Shown here piece by piece: positions 2,311 through 49,906 of a stretch of DNA of 64,000 nucleotides (the stretch's first letter is position 1; every line of letters begins with the position of its first letter). The position numbers and the translations under genes are program-made. The notes beneath the pieces were generated by a model. It did not search any database, was not told where the DNA came from, and saw only the letters and a program-made list of their open reading frames with translations. Origin of the DNA: Planctomycetota bacterium (GTDB taxonomy: Bacteria > Planctomycetota > Planctomycetia > Pirellulales > UBA1268); assembly GCA_018970605.1 (NCBI GenBank), contig JAGWWA010000003.1, positions 1 through 64,000 on the forward strand, in the 5' to 3' direction.

Positions 2311-2334
2311 GTCGTGTCAGGGCGAGAACTCAGC

Positions 2335-2470
2335 GAGGGGCTGCCCATGCCCTCGAGCGAGCTATGGGAGCAAGCGCAGCCAGGATGGCGAAGCGCAGCG
2401 GACATGCAGTGAGTCGAGGCCGGGAAGGCCGAGACGAACGTCCAGCGAGAGGGCGTGGGCAGCCTCGAGC
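2335..2470. repeat. MITE-like dispersed element, copy 1 (family A)
   Basis: Shares a long near-identical core (GGGAGCAAGCG.AGCCAGGATGGCGAAGCGCAGCGGACA.GCAG) with 28423-28560 and 48177-48316; termini are inverted repeats (GAGGGGCTGCCCATGCCCTC / GAGGGCGTGGGCAGCCTCGAGC). Confidence 0.85.
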
Positions 2471-2487
2471 CCCCGCGATAGGCAGAC

Positions 2488-2510
2488 ACAGGTTGACAAC
2501 CTGCGCGACG
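2488..2510. repeat. Short palindromic CAGGTTgacAACCTG repeat (family F)
   Basis: Perfect 6-bp stem; similar motifs at 39742-39797. Confidence 0.5.
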
Positions 2511-2550
2511 AGCCTCCCCGAGCCTCCCACCGTGATCGTGCTGCCGCTGT

Positions 2551-2600
2551 GCCAAAAATGAACCGGCCCGGATCGGCGGGGCCGATCCGGGCCGGGTTTG
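2551..2600 (-). terminator. Rho-independent terminator of the DUF937 gene
   Basis: Perfect 15-bp stem CCGGCCCGGATCGGC / GCCGATCCGGGCCGG with 3-nt loop; on the minus strand it is followed by TTCATTTTT. Confidence 0.75.
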
Positions 2601-2624
2601 ATCACGCCTGGCTGCGCCGAGGGC

Positions 2625-3764
2625 TCACTTCGACATCTTGGTGAGCGTCTCGACCATCGGGCCGACGACCGGGCCGAGCAGGTCCTTGACGCCCGGGAGC
2701 GCCATGACCGTGTCGATCACCTTCGTCAGCATGCCCAGGTTCTTGCCGATGAAGTCGGCGAACACGGGCTGCTCCTCGGCCGGCAGCTTGCCGGCCTCAT
2801 CCTCGAGCGAGGTGAGCATCGGGGCGAGCTTCTCGAGTTCCGGCACCGCGAGGCGGGCCGTCTCTTCGTTGGTCACGCCCTTGAGGACGCTCGACAGGCC
2901 GCCGAAGAGTTCGGTGGCGTTCTTGCCGATGCGGACCGCCTCCAGGAACTTCGGGTCGATCGAGAACGAGTCGACGACGGTGTCGGTCACGTTCCGACCC
3001 TGACGCTCGATCACCTCGGTGACCCGCTCGGTCACGGGGCCGATCTTCCGCTCGCCTTCGACCACCACGGCCTCGCCGGCCTTCTTGGCCTGATTCTGGT
3101 TCCAGAGGTACCAGCCAAGGCCGAGGGCGCCGAGCGCCAGCAGCGGGAGGAGCCAGCCGGGCAGGCCGCCGGCAGGCTGCGGCTCGTGCGAGTGGCTGCC
3201 GTGGCGGGCGGGGGTGGCCGAGCCACCGCTCACCGCGCCGAAGTCACCGAGCGACAGGCCGCGCGGCAGGGCGTTGCGGATGTTGCCGGACTGCTCCGAG
3301 AACAGACGCGACACGCTGGCAGCGTCGGGCTTGCCCGTGAACTGCTTGGCCACCATGCCGAGCACCATCGGGGCGAGGTAGGTGAGCAGCGTCTTCATGA
3401 TGCCCGGCTGCATGCCGGCGAACGACGCAATCGTGCCGACGAGGCTCGAGAGGTTGTTGCCGCCGCCGAGCAGCGAGGTCAGGAGGTTGCCGCCGAGGCT
3501 GCCGAGGCCCGATGCCTGGCTGCCGCCGAGCAGGCCGGCGAGGTTGCCGAGCATGCCGAGGTCGAGGCCGCCCATCGCCTTGGCGAGTTGGTCGGCGCCA
3601 CTGTTGGTCTGCGCCATCTTGCCAAACACGTTGAGCAGGGCCGGCACGGCGGCGCTCGTCGCGGTCTTGGTCTGCGAGTCGTTGGCGCCGATGAGGCCGC
3701 CCAGCTTGCTCAGCACGTCGGGCGACGTGAGCTGGCTCATGATCAGATCCGAAATGTTCATCAT
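2625..3764 (-). CDS. DUF937 (YidB-like) domain-containing protein
   Basis: N-terminus MMNISDLIMSQLTSPDVLSKLGGLIGANDSQTKTATSAAVPALLNVFGKMA is DUF937-like; TM segment LPLLALGALGLGWYLW. Confidence 0.75.
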   Translation of the reverse strand: MMNISDLIMSQLTSPDVLSKLGGLIGANDSQTKTATSAAVPALLNVFGKMAQTNSGADQLAKAMGGLDLGMLGNLAGLLGGSQASGLGSLGGNLLTSLLGGGNNLSSLVGTIASFAGMQPGIMKTLLTYLAPMVLGMVAKQFTGKPDAASVSRLFSEQSGNIRNALPRGLSLGDFGAVSGGSATPARHGSHSHEPQPAGGLPGWLLPLLALGALGLGWYLWNQNQAKKAGEAVVVEGERKIGPVTERVTEVIERQGRNVTDTVVDSFSIDPKFLEAVRIGKNATELFGGLSSVLKGVTNEETARLAVPELEKLAPMLTSLEDEAGKLPAEEQPVFADFIGKNLGMLTKVIDTVMALPGVKDLLGPVVGPMVETLTKMSK

Positions 3765-26977: not shown

Positions 26978-28300
26978 GTGTGCATGCCCGAGCCGCGACA
27001 GATCACCGCCGCCCCTCACGGCCACGTGCTCACGAACTGCGGTGTCTGGTCACCCGACTCGCGGTGGATCGTCTACGACGTTCGGTCCACTCCGGACGGC
27101 TCGGTCTTCGACGGCACGCGGATCGAGCGGGTTGATGTGGAGACGGGGACGGTCGAGGTGCTCTACGAGTCGCGGCATGGCGCGTGCTGCGGCGTCGTGA
27201 CGGCAAGCCCGGTGGACGACCGCGTGGTCTTCATCCAGGGGCCCGAGTCGCCAGAGCCCGACTGGACGTATGGCGCCGCCCGCCGCCAGGGCGTGGTGGT
27301 GCGGGCGTCGCGGCCCGGTGTGGCCGAGAATCTCGATGCCCGCGATCTCACGCCTCCCTTCACGCCCGGCGCCCTCCGCGGCGGCAGCCACGTGCACGTG
27401 TTTTCGCCCGATGGTGCCGCGGTGAGTTTCACCTACGAGGACGCCCTGCTCGAAGCGGCGGCGGCTGGCGGTGTGGCCGCTGAGCGAAACCTCCGCGGCG
27501 TGGGGTTGAGCGTCTGCGGAAGGCCGACGACGGTGCCGAGGAGGCACCCGCGCAACCACGACGGCTCCACGTTTACCGTGCTCGGATCGCGACTGTGTGA
27601 TGTGCCGCGGCCGGGCAGCGACCAGATTTCGAGAGCCTTCGAGGAGGCTTGGATCGGTACGAACGGCTACGTGCGCGCCGACGGCTCTCGGCAGCGGAGG
27701 GCGATCGCGTTCCAGGGCCACGTGGTGACCGCCGCAGGAGCGACGATCGGCGAGGTGTTCGTCCTCGATCTCCCGGATGATCTGGCCGATCTGGCGGTCG
27801 CCGGCGACGGGCCGCTCGAGGGCACGGCGGTCACGCGGCCTGTGCCGCCGCGCTGCGTCAGGCAGCGACGGCTGACGTTCACGGCCGACCGCCGCCATCC
27901 CGGCATCCAGGGGCCGCGGCACTGGCTGCGGTCGAGCCCCGACGGCGCACGAATCGCGTTTCTGATGCGGGACGACGCCGGCGTTGCGCAGCTCTGCGTC
28001 GTGAGCCCTGCCGGCGGAGAGCCGCGGCAGGTCACGCACGACGCGACCGGCATCGCCAGTGCGTTTTCCTGGAGCCCCGACGGCTGCAGGATTGCGTGCG
28101 TGATCGACGGGAGCGTGTGTCTCGTCGCTGTCGACAGCGGCGAAGTGACCAGGGTCACGCCGCCGGTTCGCGACAGCTCGGCACCGCGACCGGAGGCGTG
28201 CGTGATCTCGCCCGACGGGAGTCGCATCGCCTACGTGCGTCATCTCGCCGCCAGCGCAGGCCGGGCCTGGAATCAGATCTTCACCGTCGGGACTGTGTAG
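26978..28300 (+). CDS. DUF3748 (YidR/TolB-propeller-like) protein
   Basis: RQITAAPHGHVLTNCGVWSPDSRWIVYDVRS...RGGSHVHVFSPDGAAVSFTYEDALL; further SPDG propeller blades. Confidence 0.75.
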   Translation: MCMPEPRQITAAPHGHVLTNCGVWSPDSRWIVYDVRSTPDGSVFDGTRIERVDVETGTVEVLYESRHGACCGVVTASPVDDRVVFIQGPESPEPDWTYGAARRQGVVVRASRPGVAENLDARDLTPPFTPGALRGGSHVHVFSPDGAAVSFTYEDALLEAAAAGGVAAERNLRGVGLSVCGRPTTVPRRHPRNHDGSTFTVLGSRLCDVPRPGSDQISRAFEEAWIGTNGYVRADGSRQRRAIAFQGHVVTAAGATIGEVFVLDLPDDLADLAVAGDGPLEGTAVTRPVPPRCVRQRRLTFTADRRHPGIQGPRHWLRSSPDGARIAFLMRDDAGVAQLCVVSPAGGEPRQVTHDATGIASAFSWSPDGCRIACVIDGSVCLVAVDSGEVTRVTPPVRDSSAPRPEACVISPDGSRIAYVRHLAASAGRAWNQIFTVGTV

Positions 28301-28320: not shown

Positions 28321-28358
28321 TGCGCACGCCCCCATCGCTCACGCGATTGGGCTTCCTG
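28321..28358 (+). repeat. Family-C repeat (CCCATCGCTCACGCGATTGGGCTTCCTG)
   Basis: Same motif at 48335-48365 and inverted at about 8905-8930 and 9148-9178. Confidence 0.65.
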
Positions 28359-28422
28359 AAGCCATCACTGCGGTGCCCCACGCCTCACGGCGGTGGGCGT
28401 CCTGAAGGCATCACTGCGAAGA

Positions 28423-28560
28423 GCTCGGGGCTACCCGTGCCCTCGAGCGGGCTGTGGGAGCAAGCGAAGCCAGGATGGCGAAGCGCAGCGGACACGCAGA
28501 GAGCCGAGGCCAGGATGGCTGAGGCGAACGTCCAGCGAGAGGGCATGGGTAGCCCCGAGC
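28423..28560. repeat. MITE-like dispersed element, copy 2 (family A), best-preserved termini
   Basis: GCTCGGGGCTACCCGTGCCCTC ... GAGGGCATGGGTAGCCCCGAGC terminal inverted repeats; core matches 2335-2470 and 48177-48316. Confidence 0.9.
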
Positions 28561-28652
28561 GTTGCAGCTGGATAGGCGTGCCCTCCGCGCTGACGAGATT
28601 GGACTTCCTGCGCCCGCGGGCGCTCCGATTGACGGAGGCGCAGCAGGTTTCG

Positions 28653-31220
28653 TCAGCGGTCGGCGTACACCCGCGTGATCTCTTCCTTCGTGATCGGCGC
28701 GGGCTGATCGGCACTCGTGAGCTGCACCTGGATTCGCTGATCGCCGGCACGGCGGCCCTTGGCGCGGATGCGGAATACCGCCTCCTCGGCCGGGGCGAGC
28801 TTGGCGAGCGGCTCGAACGTGATCGTCAGGTTGTCCACGCGGTGACCACCGGGGCCCTGGGCCTCGACCGGCTCGAGGTCGCCGAGGAGGGTGGCTGCGA
28901 GCCGCACGCCGGTGGCGGGCTTCGTGCCCTGGTTTCCGACGCGGACGACGTACTCGGTCACGCCGTCGACCTCGATTGGATCCTCACTGTCAACGACGTC
29001 GAACGAGAGCGCGGCAAGCCCCTCGACGTCGCAGGTGTGCGTGACCTGATCGGCGAGGCCATCGGCGCTGCGGGCGGCAGCCACGATCTTCTGCGGACCG
29101 AGTTCAACCGGCATCACCACCATCTGCACCGACCCGGTCTCGCCTGCGGGCAGTTCCTCGAGGTTCCAGAGCACGCGATGGGTGCGGTCGTCGTGCCAGC
29201 CGGCGTTGTTGGCCTTCACGAACTTCATGCCCGGCGGGAGTTGTGCCGCCAGTTCGACGGCCTTGGCCGGTGCGGTGCCGGCGTTGGTCATGGCGATCGT
29301 GCAGGTCGCCGGCCGTTGGAGGAAACGCCGCAGCGGCATGTCGACCGCGAGTTCGAGCGTGGGCGCCGTCACCTCGATCGGCAGCTGGTGGACCACCTCC
29401 ACGCCGCCGTCGGCGCGGGCGGCGAGCCTGGCCGCGTGGACGCCCGGGCCGCGTGTACCGAGCACCAGATCGATGGTGCGAGATTCACCCGGCCGCAGCT
29501 GGCCGACGTCGAACTCGAGTTCGCGTCCCGAGCGGTGCGATACGTTTTCGGGCAGGAATCCCTCGAGAACCACGCCGGTGGCCACGCCCGTGCCGGGGTT
29601 GGTGACGGTGATCGTGACCTGCAGGTCGCGGCCGATGAGGACCGGCTCCGGGGGCGTGCACTCGATCCGGAGGTCGGGCTTCGTGGCCCGCGAACGGACC
29701 GAGGCGTCGGTCCGAAAACTGACGCTCGCCACGCTGCCGACCTCGCCTTCGACCTGCGGCATCACCTCCATCGTGACCACCGCCTGACCGCCGGGAGGCA
29801 GTGTGCCGAGCGCCCAGACGAGTGCGCCGTCGGCGTCGCCCGAGGCCTGGTTCACCGGGCTCGCGGGGGGCGTGGTGGCCACCAGCGCCGTGCCCTGTGG
29901 GATGGCGTCGCGAAGCAGCACGTCGTGGGCCGTGGCACTTCCGACGTTGCGAACGACGATTTCGTAGCGAGCCGGCTTGCCGACGGAGATCTCCCGTGGG
30001 CCACGTTTTTCGACCGACACCTGCGGCGTTTGCACGCCCTCGAGTTGCATCGGGCCCGGACGTCCCTGGCCGGTGGCGGGGGGCTGCCTGGGTGGTGCGG
30101 CCGCCGCCGGGTGCTGCTCCGGATCGGCGGCGGCGAGGCCGCCCGGCATCACCGCTGGCGCGGCGGCGAACGGCGAGCCGCCTGAAGCCACCGTGGCCGT
30201 GATCGCGGGCGGGGATGGAGGCATCGCGGCTGCGGACGGCATGGCGGGGGGCGGCACGAATGCGGCTGGTGGAGGCAGCGGTGCGTGCGGCGCGGGGCCG
30301 GCAAACGGCGGCGGTGCGGCGCCGAAGGCAGCGGCGGGTGGAGGCGGCATGGGTGCCTGAGCAGCGGGGGCGGGCTCGGTGGCCGCCGCCGGAGGAAGCG
30401 GATCGGCGGCGGCGAGATCTCCCGTGTCCTCGGGGAGCCTGTCTGGCGTCGGGGCATGCGGTGTCGGCGAGTCCAACTCCGCGTTCACGGGCATTGCGAA
30501 GGCCGATGGCGGCGAAGGCTCGGCAGCGCGTCCGTCAGACGGCGGTGTCGGTGGCGGGACGACGGATGGAGCATCGGTGGGGGGCAGCGTGCGGTCGTCG
30601 CCCGCCGGCGACATCGGCTGCGAGTCGGCCGATACGTCAGCGGCCACCGGCAGGACCGTGTCAGGCACGGGTTCGAGGTGGGCCGCCGCGAACCGGGGAA
30701 GCGGCCGCGGCGGTGGGATGTCGCCAGATGCGGGCAGTACCGCTTCGGGCATGTCGAGCGACGTCGGCCGGACCGCATAGCGGTCATCGGCATCGGCGGT
30801 GGGTGTTTCATGGCCAGCGGGGCGGCTGTTCCACCGACCACCTCGGGCGGCGGGCTGAGCCGGCGTTGCCTCGTCCATGTGCGGCAGCATGTCGGGCTGA
30901 CGCGTCGTCGCGGTGGTCGCCTCGTCGGTCGGGCGGCGTGATTCGGATGCGTCATCAGCCTGTGCCACGGTGGGCGGTTCTGGGGCCGACTCACCGGAAG
31001 CGGATCCTCCGCGGCCGATGCCGAGTCCCCAGACGAGACCAAACCCGGCCACCGCGCAGAGGCAGGCGCCGATCACGGCCGAGAGGTTTGACTGCCGCGG
31101 AGGCACCACGAGGTCCTGCCGCGAGCCGCGCGGGCCCGGCGCGACGGCTGGCACGGCCCCGGGCATGGCCTCGGTCCCGGTCTCGGTCTCGGGCGTGGCT
31201 TCGGGCATGGATTCAGACAT
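28653..31220 (-). CDS. DUF11-repeat membrane-anchored protein with Pro/Ala-rich N-terminal half
   Basis: Single TM (LSAVIGACLCAVAGFGLVWGLGI), long low-complexity region, then repeated VEKRGPREISVGKPARYEIVVRNVGSATAHDVLLRDAIPQGT-type modules. Confidence 0.8.
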   Translation of the reverse strand: MSESMPEATPETETGTEAMPGAVPAVAPGPRGSRQDLVVPPRQSNLSAVIGACLCAVAGFGLVWGLGIGRGGSASGESAPEPPTVAQADDASESRRPTDEATTATTRQPDMLPHMDEATPAQPAARGGRWNSRPAGHETPTADADDRYAVRPTSLDMPEAVLPASGDIPPPRPLPRFAAAHLEPVPDTVLPVAADVSADSQPMSPAGDDRTLPPTDAPSVVPPPTPPSDGRAAEPSPPSAFAMPVNAELDSPTPHAPTPDRLPEDTGDLAAADPLPPAAATEPAPAAQAPMPPPPAAAFGAAPPPFAGPAPHAPLPPPAAFVPPPAMPSAAAMPPSPPAITATVASGGSPFAAAPAVMPGGLAAADPEQHPAAAAPPRQPPATGQGRPGPMQLEGVQTPQVSVEKRGPREISVGKPARYEIVVRNVGSATAHDVLLRDAIPQGTALVATTPPASPVNQASGDADGALVWALGTLPPGGQAVVTMEVMPQVEGEVGSVASVSFRTDASVRSRATKPDLRIECTPPEPVLIGRDLQVTITVTNPGTGVATGVVLEGFLPENVSHRSGRELEFDVGQLRPGESRTIDLVLGTRGPGVHAARLAARADGGVEVVHQLPIEVTAPTLELAVDMPLRRFLQRPATCTIAMTNAGTAPAKAVELAAQLPPGMKFVKANNAGWHDDRTHRVLWNLEELPAGETGSVQMVVMPVELGPQKIVAAARSADGLADQVTHTCDVEGLAALSFDVVDSEDPIEVDGVTEYVVRVGNQGTKPATGVRLAATLLGDLEPVEAQGPGGHRVDNLTITFEPLAKLAPAEEAVFRIRAKGRRAGDQRIQVQLTSADQPAPITKEEITRVYADR

Positions 31221-47651: not shown

Positions 47652-48074
<423 letters not shown>

Positions 48075-48133: not shown

Positions 48134-48176
48134 TTTTCCTTTCTGCAAACCACCGGGCGACCTATCCGCAAGGCGA

Positions 48177-48316
48177 GCGAGGGGCTGCCCGTGCCCGGGA
48201 GCCGGGCTGTGGGAGCAAGCGAAGCCATGGATGGCGAAGCGCAGCGGACACGCAGCGAACGGAGGCCCGGAAGGCCGACGTGAGCGTCCGGCGACGGGCA
48301 TGGGCAGTCCCTCGCG
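48177..48316. repeat. MITE-like dispersed element, copy 3 (family A)
   Basis: GAGGGGCTGCCCGTGCCCG ... CGGGCATGGGCAGTCCCTC termini; core shared with 2335-2470 and 28423-28560. Confidence 0.85.
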
Positions 48317-48334
48317 CTGAGGCTGCGCCGGCGT

Positions 48335-48365
48335 GCCCCCATCGCTTACGCGATTGGGCTTCCTG
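48335..48365 (+). repeat. Family-C repeat
   Basis: GCCCCCATCGCTTACGCGATTGGGCTTCCTG. Confidence 0.65.
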
Positions 48366-48457
48366 AGTTTGCAGTGAGCGTCCGGCGACGGGCATGGACA
48401 GGCATGACGCCATCGCCCACAATCCGCTGACGTTTGAGTGACTCCCGGAGTGATCGC

Positions 48458-49906
48458 ATGACAACGTGGCCCGTCCATGGCACGATCGATGGTCCTATCG
48501 TCATGATCGGCTTTGGTTCGATCGGTCGGGGCACGCTGCCGCTGCTTGAGCGACACTTCGCGTTTGACCGCTCCCGGCTGGTGGTCATCGATCCGGACGA
48601 CAGCAGCCGCGACATCCTCGACCGCCACGGGGTTCGGTTCATCCATCAGGCCGTGACCCGCGACCGCTATCGGCATCTTCTCGAGCCGCTGCTCACGACC
48701 GGCGGGCAGGCATTCTGCGTCAATCTCTCGGTCGATACGTCGTCGCTCGACATCATGCGACTCTGTCGGGAGGTCGGGGCGCTCTACATCGACACGGTGG
48801 TCGAGCCCTGGCCGGGCTTCTACTTCGACCGCAGTGCCGGTCCCGAGGCTCGCACCAACAACGCCCTGCGGGCGACGGTCCGCGAGGAGAAGGCCCGGCA
48901 TCCCGGCGGCACCACCGCCGTCTCCTGCTGCGGCGCCAATCCCGGCATGGTTTCCTGGTTCGTCAAGCAGGCACTGGTGGATCTCGCCCGCGATCTGGGC
49001 CGCAGGCTGCCCACACCGGCCGCCGACGATCAGCCCGGCTGGGCGAGGATGATGCGGGATCTCGGCGTCAAGGGAATTCACATCGCCGAACGCGACACCC
49101 AGCGGTCGCGGAATCCCAAGCCGATGAACGTGTTCGTCAATACGTGGAGCGTCGAGGGCTTCCTTTCCGAGGGCATGCAGCCGGCGGAACTCGGCTGGGG
49201 CACGCACGAGAAGTGGCTGCCTGAGAACGGCCGCCTGGAGACGATCGGTTCCAAGGCCGGCGCCTATCTGCTCCAGCCCGGGGCCAACACCCGGGTTCGC
49301 TCCTGGTGTCCGACGCCCGGTCCGCAGTACGGCTTTCTCGTCACGCACAACGAGTCGATCTCGATCGCCGACTACTTTACGGTTCGCGACGGCACGTCCG
49401 GCGGCGGCTGCGTCTACCGTCCCACCTGTCACTACGCCTACCATCCCGCCGATGACGCCGTGTTGTCGCTTCATGAGCTCTTCGGCCGTGCCGGCGCTCG
49501 TCAGGAGCGGATCCACATCCTCGACGAGCACGAGATCGTCGACGGGATCGATGAGCTGGGGGTGTTGCTCTACGGCCACGAGAAGAATGCCTACTGGTAC
49601 GGCTCGCAGCTCTCCATCGACGAGACCCGCGATCTCGCTCCGTACCAGAACGCCACGGGCCTGCAGGTGTCGTCCGCCGTGCTCGCCGGGATGGTCTGGG
49701 CGCTGGAAAACCCCACCGCGGGAATCGTGGAGGCCGACGAGATGGACTTCCAGCGGTGCCTGGAGGTTCAGCGTCCCTACCTCGGGCCCGTCACCGGCCA
49801 CTACACCGACTGGACGCCACTGACCGGCCGCCCCGGGCTGTTCAACGAGAACATCGACGCCAGCGACCCCTGGCAGTTCAAGAACGTCCTCGTGCACGGG
49901 GCGTGA
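48458..49906 (+). CDS. Homospermidine synthase (saccharopine dehydrogenase-like)
   Basis: MIGFGSIGRGTLPLLERHF, YIDTVVEPWPGFYFD, SCCGANPGMVSWFVKQAL, GAYLLQPGANTRVRSWCPTPG. Confidence 0.88.
   Translation: MTTWPVHGTIDGPIVMIGFGSIGRGTLPLLERHFAFDRSRLVVIDPDDSSRDILDRHGVRFIHQAVTRDRYRHLLEPLLTTGGQAFCVNLSVDTSSLDIMRLCREVGALYIDTVVEPWPGFYFDRSAGPEARTNNALRATVREEKARHPGGTTAVSCCGANPGMVSWFVKQALVDLARDLGRRLPTPAADDQPGWARMMRDLGVKGIHIAERDTQRSRNPKPMNVFVNTWSVEGFLSEGMQPAELGWGTHEKWLPENGRLETIGSKAGAYLLQPGANTRVRSWCPTPGPQYGFLVTHNESISIADYFTVRDGTSGGGCVYRPTCHYAYHPADDAVLSLHELFGRAGARQERIHILDEHEIVDGIDELGVLLYGHEKNAYWYGSQLSIDETRDLAPYQNATGLQVSSAVLAGMVWALENPTAGIVEADEMDFQRCLEVQRPYLGPVTGHYTDWTPLTGRPGLFNENIDASDPWQFKNVLVHGA

Follow-up and report, generated by a model that had tools for sequence, protein, structure and literature searches.

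The element at positions 28423-28560 belongs to a high-copy family of structured repeats, and we propose, with a probability of about 60%, that it is a large REP/REPIN-like palindromic repeat, mobile but non-autonomous, which acts by way of a folded single strand. The conservation of its fold, its turnover among relatives and its orientation along the chromosome together suggest a family of small mobile elements, not recognised before, that depends on one folded strand. The window, the stretch of 64,000 nucleotides that was analysed, contains three copies (Table 1), at positions that agree within a few bases with those in the first-pass annotation; a covariance-model (CM) search of the window with filters off found no fourth. 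The CM matches (R1, all with E ≤ 6.4e-23) extend over 2331-2472, 28421-28562 and 48175-48317 (+), including 2-nt flanks. The three copies align with a mean column identity of 80% (flanks included) and their ends pair as that annotation described, bearing out its shared core and inverted ends. Its placement of all three copies between genes also holds, according to gene calls that are codon-usage predictions made for the present analysis.

Table 1. Positions in the window of the three copies, their neighbouring genes, the parts of copy 2 and the accompanying small hairpins
Feature	Position	Strand	Basis or remark
Copy 1	2333-2470	+	CM R1 144.3 bits; gene calls, Pfam
Copy 1 neighbours, convergent	55-2310 (peptidase U32); 2625-3764 (DUF937)	+; -	gene calls, Pfam
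Copy 2, full length (focal element)	28423-28560	+	CM R1 153.9 bits; gene calls, Pfam
Copy 2 neighbours, convergent	26984-28300 (DUF3748/PD40); 28653-31220 (DUF11 repeats)	+; -	gene calls, Pfam
Copy 3	48177-48315	+	CM R1 136.1 bits; gene calls, Pfam
Copy 3 neighbours	47736-48074 (P-II); 48458-49906 (saccharopine dehydrogenase-like)	+; +	gene calls, Pfam
Copy 2 outer stem, 5' strand (left terminal inverted repeat of the first-pass annotation)	28423-28444	+	pairs with 28539-28560; structure, covariation
Copy 2 outer stem, 3' strand (right terminal inverted repeat of the first-pass annotation)	28539-28560	+	structure, covariation
Copy 2 arm A, TGTGGGAGC...GCGGACACGCA, GNA/GNA internal loop, GGA apex	28454-28498 (approximate)	+	pair counts
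Copy 2 arm B, GAGAGCCGAGGCCAGGATGGCTGAGGCGAAC, GA/GA at base, GGA apex	28499-28530 (approximate)	+	6/9 pairs changed on both sides
REP2 small hairpin CCCCCATCGCTCACGCGATTGGGCTTCCTGA, upstream of copy 2, orientation as element	28330-28359	+	
REP2 hairpin downstream of copy 3, orientation as element; a piece of the element's 3' end follows	48336-48367 (approximate)	+	

A genome-wide search raised the number of copies far above three. BLAST of the home assembly (G000; 2.86 Mb in 164 contigs, 76% complete) gave 45 matches to the element, and a CM built from 42 copies gave at least 146 matches with E ≤ 0.01 among 150 candidates scored, so that the family comprises at least 140 confident copies in this assembly. 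The concern that only the three copies might exist is thereby removed, as is the concern that they might be conserved at syntenic positions as parts of adjacent genes, since the copies are not conserved in that way. The element was found in 21 of the 24 genomes of the same taxonomic family in the order sample (most of the copy counts being lower bounds), in none of the 124 genomes that represent the order's other families and, besides the home genome, in none of 248 genomes of the phylum sample. Within the family, G123 and G131 are poor in the element and G076, G127 and G154 are free of it. A pattern scan of GTDB representatives returned 57 stretches, all in metagenome-assembled genomes (MAGs) titled Planctomycetota, Planctomycetia, Planctomycetaceae or 'Candidatus Kuenenia', several of which bear lake names. 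Viral contigs (IMG/VR, one pattern) and plasmids (PLSDB) gave no match, and Rfam 15 gave none either at the gathering threshold or at E ≤ 1. The open-licence literature yielded no earlier description of the repeat family, although one may exist elsewhere. MAGs titled 'Candidatus Kuenenia stuttgartiensis' (CAMBSN, CAMDFJ, CAMDDJ) carry the element in loci of 65-69% GC (L048, L049, L051, L062, L072, L096, L101). Kuenenia has a genome of low GC content, and CAMBSN01 is G016, from the genus of the window's organism; these titles therefore look wrong.

Comparison of syntenic sites shows that the element turns over by gain and loss between close species. At the DUF937 locus the home genome carries copy 1, whereas L228, L229, L230 and L232 have the same convergent genes and no element (in L230 the neighbour gene was recognised from its gene-end sequence alone); in G006 a different copy of the element occupies the gap. 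Joined-flank searches of two close species found many sites filled in both and others without a full copy. One site in G016 retains just the last 11 nt of a copy and others retain larger fragments, while at another G016 site the copy is absent and one lies ~100 nt away. Because fragments remain at the best sites, some of the presence/absence differences are deletions. Orthologous sites without a copy, which the first-pass annotation had recommended looking for, thus exist, but none of those compared showed an insertion with clean, exact junctions. That annotation's broader description of a non-autonomous mobile or structural element agrees with a repeat that is dispersed, intergenic and present in many copies, encodes no transposase and varies in presence at syntenic sites. 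Most relatives retain a hairpin such as CCGGCCCGGATCGGCGGGGCCGATCCGGGCCGG beside the end of the DUF937 gene (window 2400-2620, L228-L241), whether or not they carry the element, and this hairpin has the appearance of the true terminator.

The fold was characterised in an alignment of 42 copies made with MAFFT, in which structure was not used. It comprises two stems, an outer one of ~20 bp and an inner one, and a pair of arms at a three-way junction, and 28421-28562 folds far better than shuffled sequences (z = -9.8 with RNA and -5.7 with DNA parameters). In this alignment 25 pairs have changes on both sides, compared with 12.5 in shuffles. The number of double-change cells is 325 (95 expected) for 100 copies and 359 (88 expected) for 85 distinct copies from relatives, both alignments having been fitted to the CM and therefore leaning towards the model. 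In all three alignments the covariation signal disappears when the partner columns are slid by 1-3. Arm A occurs in at least six sequence types with its pairing maintained; its GNA/GNA loop is present in 42/42 copies, and G48/A50 and G63/A65 of A2 are invariant across them. GA/GA loops occur in two places, the inner stem and the arm B base, in 41-42 of the 42 copies, and the apices are GGA or CGA. Two copies lack arm A and some carry a second hairpin nested at its tip. The hairpin ACGACCAATCCGCCTGCGGCGGATCGGTGCCC is nested exactly there in L126, L127, L128, L131, L133, L199 and L202, as if one repeat had been inserted into another. The peptide that can be read from the core, already called spurious in the first-pass annotation, is one frame of arm A; as frame-breaking indels separate the copies and 138 of the 139 home-genome copies with gene calls are intergenic, it is unlikely to be real and was rejected. 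Two RNA classes were also set aside: a CsrA-type RNA binding through GGA loops (AGGAU-like apices), given that most of the loops have 5 nt and that CGA variants exist, and a hammerhead-like core (GA/GAA beside arm B), given that there is no CUGA box and no Rfam match.

The mismatches tolerated in the stems distinguish the two strands. Paired columns contain G.U and A.C in ratios of 105:11 and 271:29 (~9:1), and still of 49:11 and 103:26 when G.U-rich columns are left out. Since G.U and A.C arise from the same type of mutation on opposite strands, it is the + strand that is selected for folding, whether as single-stranded DNA or as RNA. The reverse strand scores 26.6 bits with the CM and folds worse with RNA and DNA parameters alike.

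Copies of the element often occur in mosaics with two smaller hairpins. One of these, REP2 (CCCCCATCGCTTACGCGATTGGGCTTCCTGA), has the same orientation as the element in 69/69 cases in which it lies within 130 bp of it, and tandem arrays have a period of ~195-200 bp. The final ~40 nt of the element are found again following REP2 (L001:2174, L003:1248, L031:148, downstream of L128, and window 48370-48400), sometimes forming a tandem [3' end + REP2] unit, which suggests slippage or one-ended copying. Many G000 loci (for example L006:1150-1200, L168:1440-1530, L158:1680-1740) also contain another abundant palindrome, GTAG-GTGCAGGTTTTCAACCTGCAC, whose end is of the GTAG type and which resembles the GTAG REPs of PMC3733652. 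Relatives, above all G119, which belongs to another genus, carry doublets composed of two head-to-head hairpins that differ in subtype. The spacer is 9-33 bp in most cases and the order is nearly always minus-plus, with 5' ends facing (11 versus 1 in mixed loci). Doublets are the usual form in G119 and rare in the home genome, and their outer tails often resemble GGTTGGGCGNGTTGA. Additional outer repeats, among them a hairpin like CAATCCTGTTCGGCACAAGGATTG, are common to G119 doublets (L353, L354, L356), and the boundaries of the mobile unit may therefore lie outside the doublet.

Orientation follows gene-corrected GC skew, and not genes, in G018 and G119. The contigs of G018 are long, and 28/40 pairs of neighbouring elements in this genome lie on the same strand (p=0.017); the element strand is the strand of negative third-position GC skew, corrected for gene direction, in 42/51 cases (42:9, p=3e-6); the association holds in 14 of 17 contigs, and coding strands have no bias (0.499). 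With the direction fixed beforehand, G119 gave 23/31 (23:8, p=0.011), single copies accounting for 14/16. The p-values for orientation are optimistic, as elements that share a contig are not independent. The home genome shows a trend of 63:44 after gene correction that is not significant (p=0.08), the three window copies run opposite to the trend, and same-strand runs in this genome alone (33/56) are not significant. Its raw local GC skew (39 positive, 100 negative) was given no weight, since repeats close by might bias it. If, as seems probable, GC skew marks the replication strand, the bias could reflect loss only: slippage would delete those copies whose folding strand is the lagging-strand template, and insertion need not be coupled to replication. 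The folding strand lies on the negative-skew strand, which would be the leading-strand template if G-rich means leading, and partial copies and fragments do occur. Biased loss alone leaves the 69:0 agreement of REP2 and the order of the doublets unexplained. It is compatible with the folded-strand mobility proposed here for everything else, and for the orientation signal by itself it is a serious alternative that has a real chance of being correct, although we lean against it.

The enzyme expected from classical REPs and REPINs would be a resident RAYT/IS200-type Y1 transposase that moves the element by way of its companion REP hairpins. The constant orientation of REP2 relative to the element and the REPIN-like layout of the doublets (PMC3116915) agree with this, as does the one Y1 gene of the home genome, C85 (L203:804-1295; Y1_Tnp, RAYT-like, 24.5 bits with Pfam, below the NCBIfam cut-offs). 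Short palindromic repeats (CCATCCCCTCGCTCCCGCTCGGGGCTTGCTG) with a tail resembling REP2 flank C85 on both sides, in a typical REPtron layout. Arrays of short REPs of other kinds (GCCCGAGGCGTAAGCCGAGTGGATGCCC and GCCCGAGGCCTTACGGCCTTCGGCTT) flank further RAYT-like genes (L257:1110-2110 in G086 and L260:560-1580 in G016). As a mobiliser of the element, Y1/RAYT fails on phyletic pattern and on neighbourhood. Searches of 27 family genomes detected no Y1_Tnp in 14 of them, among which are the element-rich G009, G012, G013, G030 and G111, whereas the element-free G076 has four Y1_Tnp genes; and the element lies beside none of the 20 Y1 loci inspected, some of which are flanked by short REPs. The stand-alone REP-associated transposase that the first-pass annotation had suggested seeking was accordingly not found beside the element, and the distribution of Y1 genes does not match. 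The flank profiles at both ends of the element also lack a GTAG/CGTC tag, CGTC being conserved only in its interior. We therefore consider mobilisation by a resident Y1 enzyme unlikely and propose REP-like mobility by a putative other enzyme.

Placement relative to genes bears on a role at the RNA level. The settings of the 139 copies comprise 56 between convergent genes, 3 between divergent genes and, beyond the tandem pairs, the remainder at contig or locus edges; REPs have the same pattern of placement (PMC3733652). A function for the host as structured RNAs or 3'-end elements (terminator, mRNA stabiliser or sRNA), with spread by recombination, would agree with placement at gene 3' ends and with the strong single-strand covariation and RNA-type tolerance of G.U. 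But copies in tandem gene pairs are co-directional in 31 cases and anti-directional in 29, and this lack of preference for the sense strand disfavours a directional terminator or 3'-UTR role. Presence of the element also varies among close species, the separate terminator-like hairpin persists by the DUF937 gene regardless of the element, and no Rfam family was matched. Retention for an RNA-level function is thus improbable.

The label given in the first-pass annotation, a MITE-like element, was not supported, since a single continuous fold has the terminal inverted repeats as its outer stem, target-site duplication was not detected and no parent transposon was found in the loci examined. Derivation by deletion from a DDE-type insertion sequence, which would make the element an ordinary MITE, accords with the element's size, inverted ends, intergenic position and lack of coding capacity, but is very unlikely: comparison with shuffled flanks at all offsets gave no convincing excess of target-site duplications beyond the element ends' own matches, the interior is conserved in structure throughout, which would not be expected of filler DNA, and no longer relative with a transposase and the same ends was met in the loci examined, which were not exhaustive.

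One-strand selection, the palindromic fold, the absence of target-site duplication, the doublets, the mosaics and the polar orientation together point to a likeness with HUH/RAYT-type single-strand mobility. In the mechanism that we favour, the + strand, in the form of single-stranded DNA or RNA, would adopt a three-way-junction hairpin of ~140 nt that a putative enzyme acting in trans recognises. This enzyme would copy or move the unit into intergenic DNA with no duplication of the target, either by itself, in combination with small REP hairpins or as an inverted doublet. Whether copies enter or survive would depend on the direction of replication, and those damaging promoters or genes would be purged. 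The folded form is presumably the mobility intermediate, and the nucleic acid is probably single-stranded DNA rather than RNA. A stronger version, a lineage-specific mobile class in which a putative non-RAYT enzyme recognises the ~140-nt folded strand and insertion proceeds in step with replication, is possible but doubtful; if it is true, scores to hundreds of copies would mark replication polarity on planctomycete chromosomes.

The family adds to Planctomycetota an abundant structured repeat that is absent from Rfam, and separates REP-like spread from a detectable RAYT. Its orientation signal makes the mechanism testable, as replication-coupled single-strand insertion against orientation-dependent hairpin loss. 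Many copies lie at contig ends in public MAGs, and the repeats may therefore break assemblies.

ERIC and bcr1 are of the element's length class, with a TIR-like imperfect palindrome and an intergenic position. They differ from the element, which has no target-site duplication, a conserved three-way junction with fixed loop motifs and an orientation along the chromosome. Both have been classed as MITEs (PMC3733652). The likeness to IS608 of the IS200/IS605 group, in which folded single-strand transposition is linked to the replication strand (PMC6006769), is a mechanistic analogy that resides in the folded single strand and a presumed replication-strand link, for the element by way of the GC skew of G018 and G119. 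The element has no subterminal left and right hairpins around a gene. The REPs tagged with GTAG/CGTC, a family reported in Planctomycetes too, likewise lie between convergent and co-directional genes and have frequent G.U pairs (PMC3733652), whereas the element lacks the terminal tag, is much longer and has nested and modular arms. The element is REPIN-like, yet it lacks the tag of such systems, no cognate RAYT was found beside it or matching it in distribution, and the target-site duplication of MITEs was not detected. REPs are of 20-40 nt, in contrast to the ~140 nt and three-way junction of the element with its invariant GA/GA and GNA loops, and a REPIN is an inverted REP doublet (PMC3116915) built of a much smaller unit. 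With REPINs and BIMEs (PMC3116915, PMC2817692) the element shares the absence of target-site duplication and the high copy number of intergenic palindromes without coding capacity, arranged as singles, inverted doublets and mosaics; the same genomic placement and a hairpin maintained by compensatory changes are features of REPs and REPINs as well (PMC3733652, PMC3116915).
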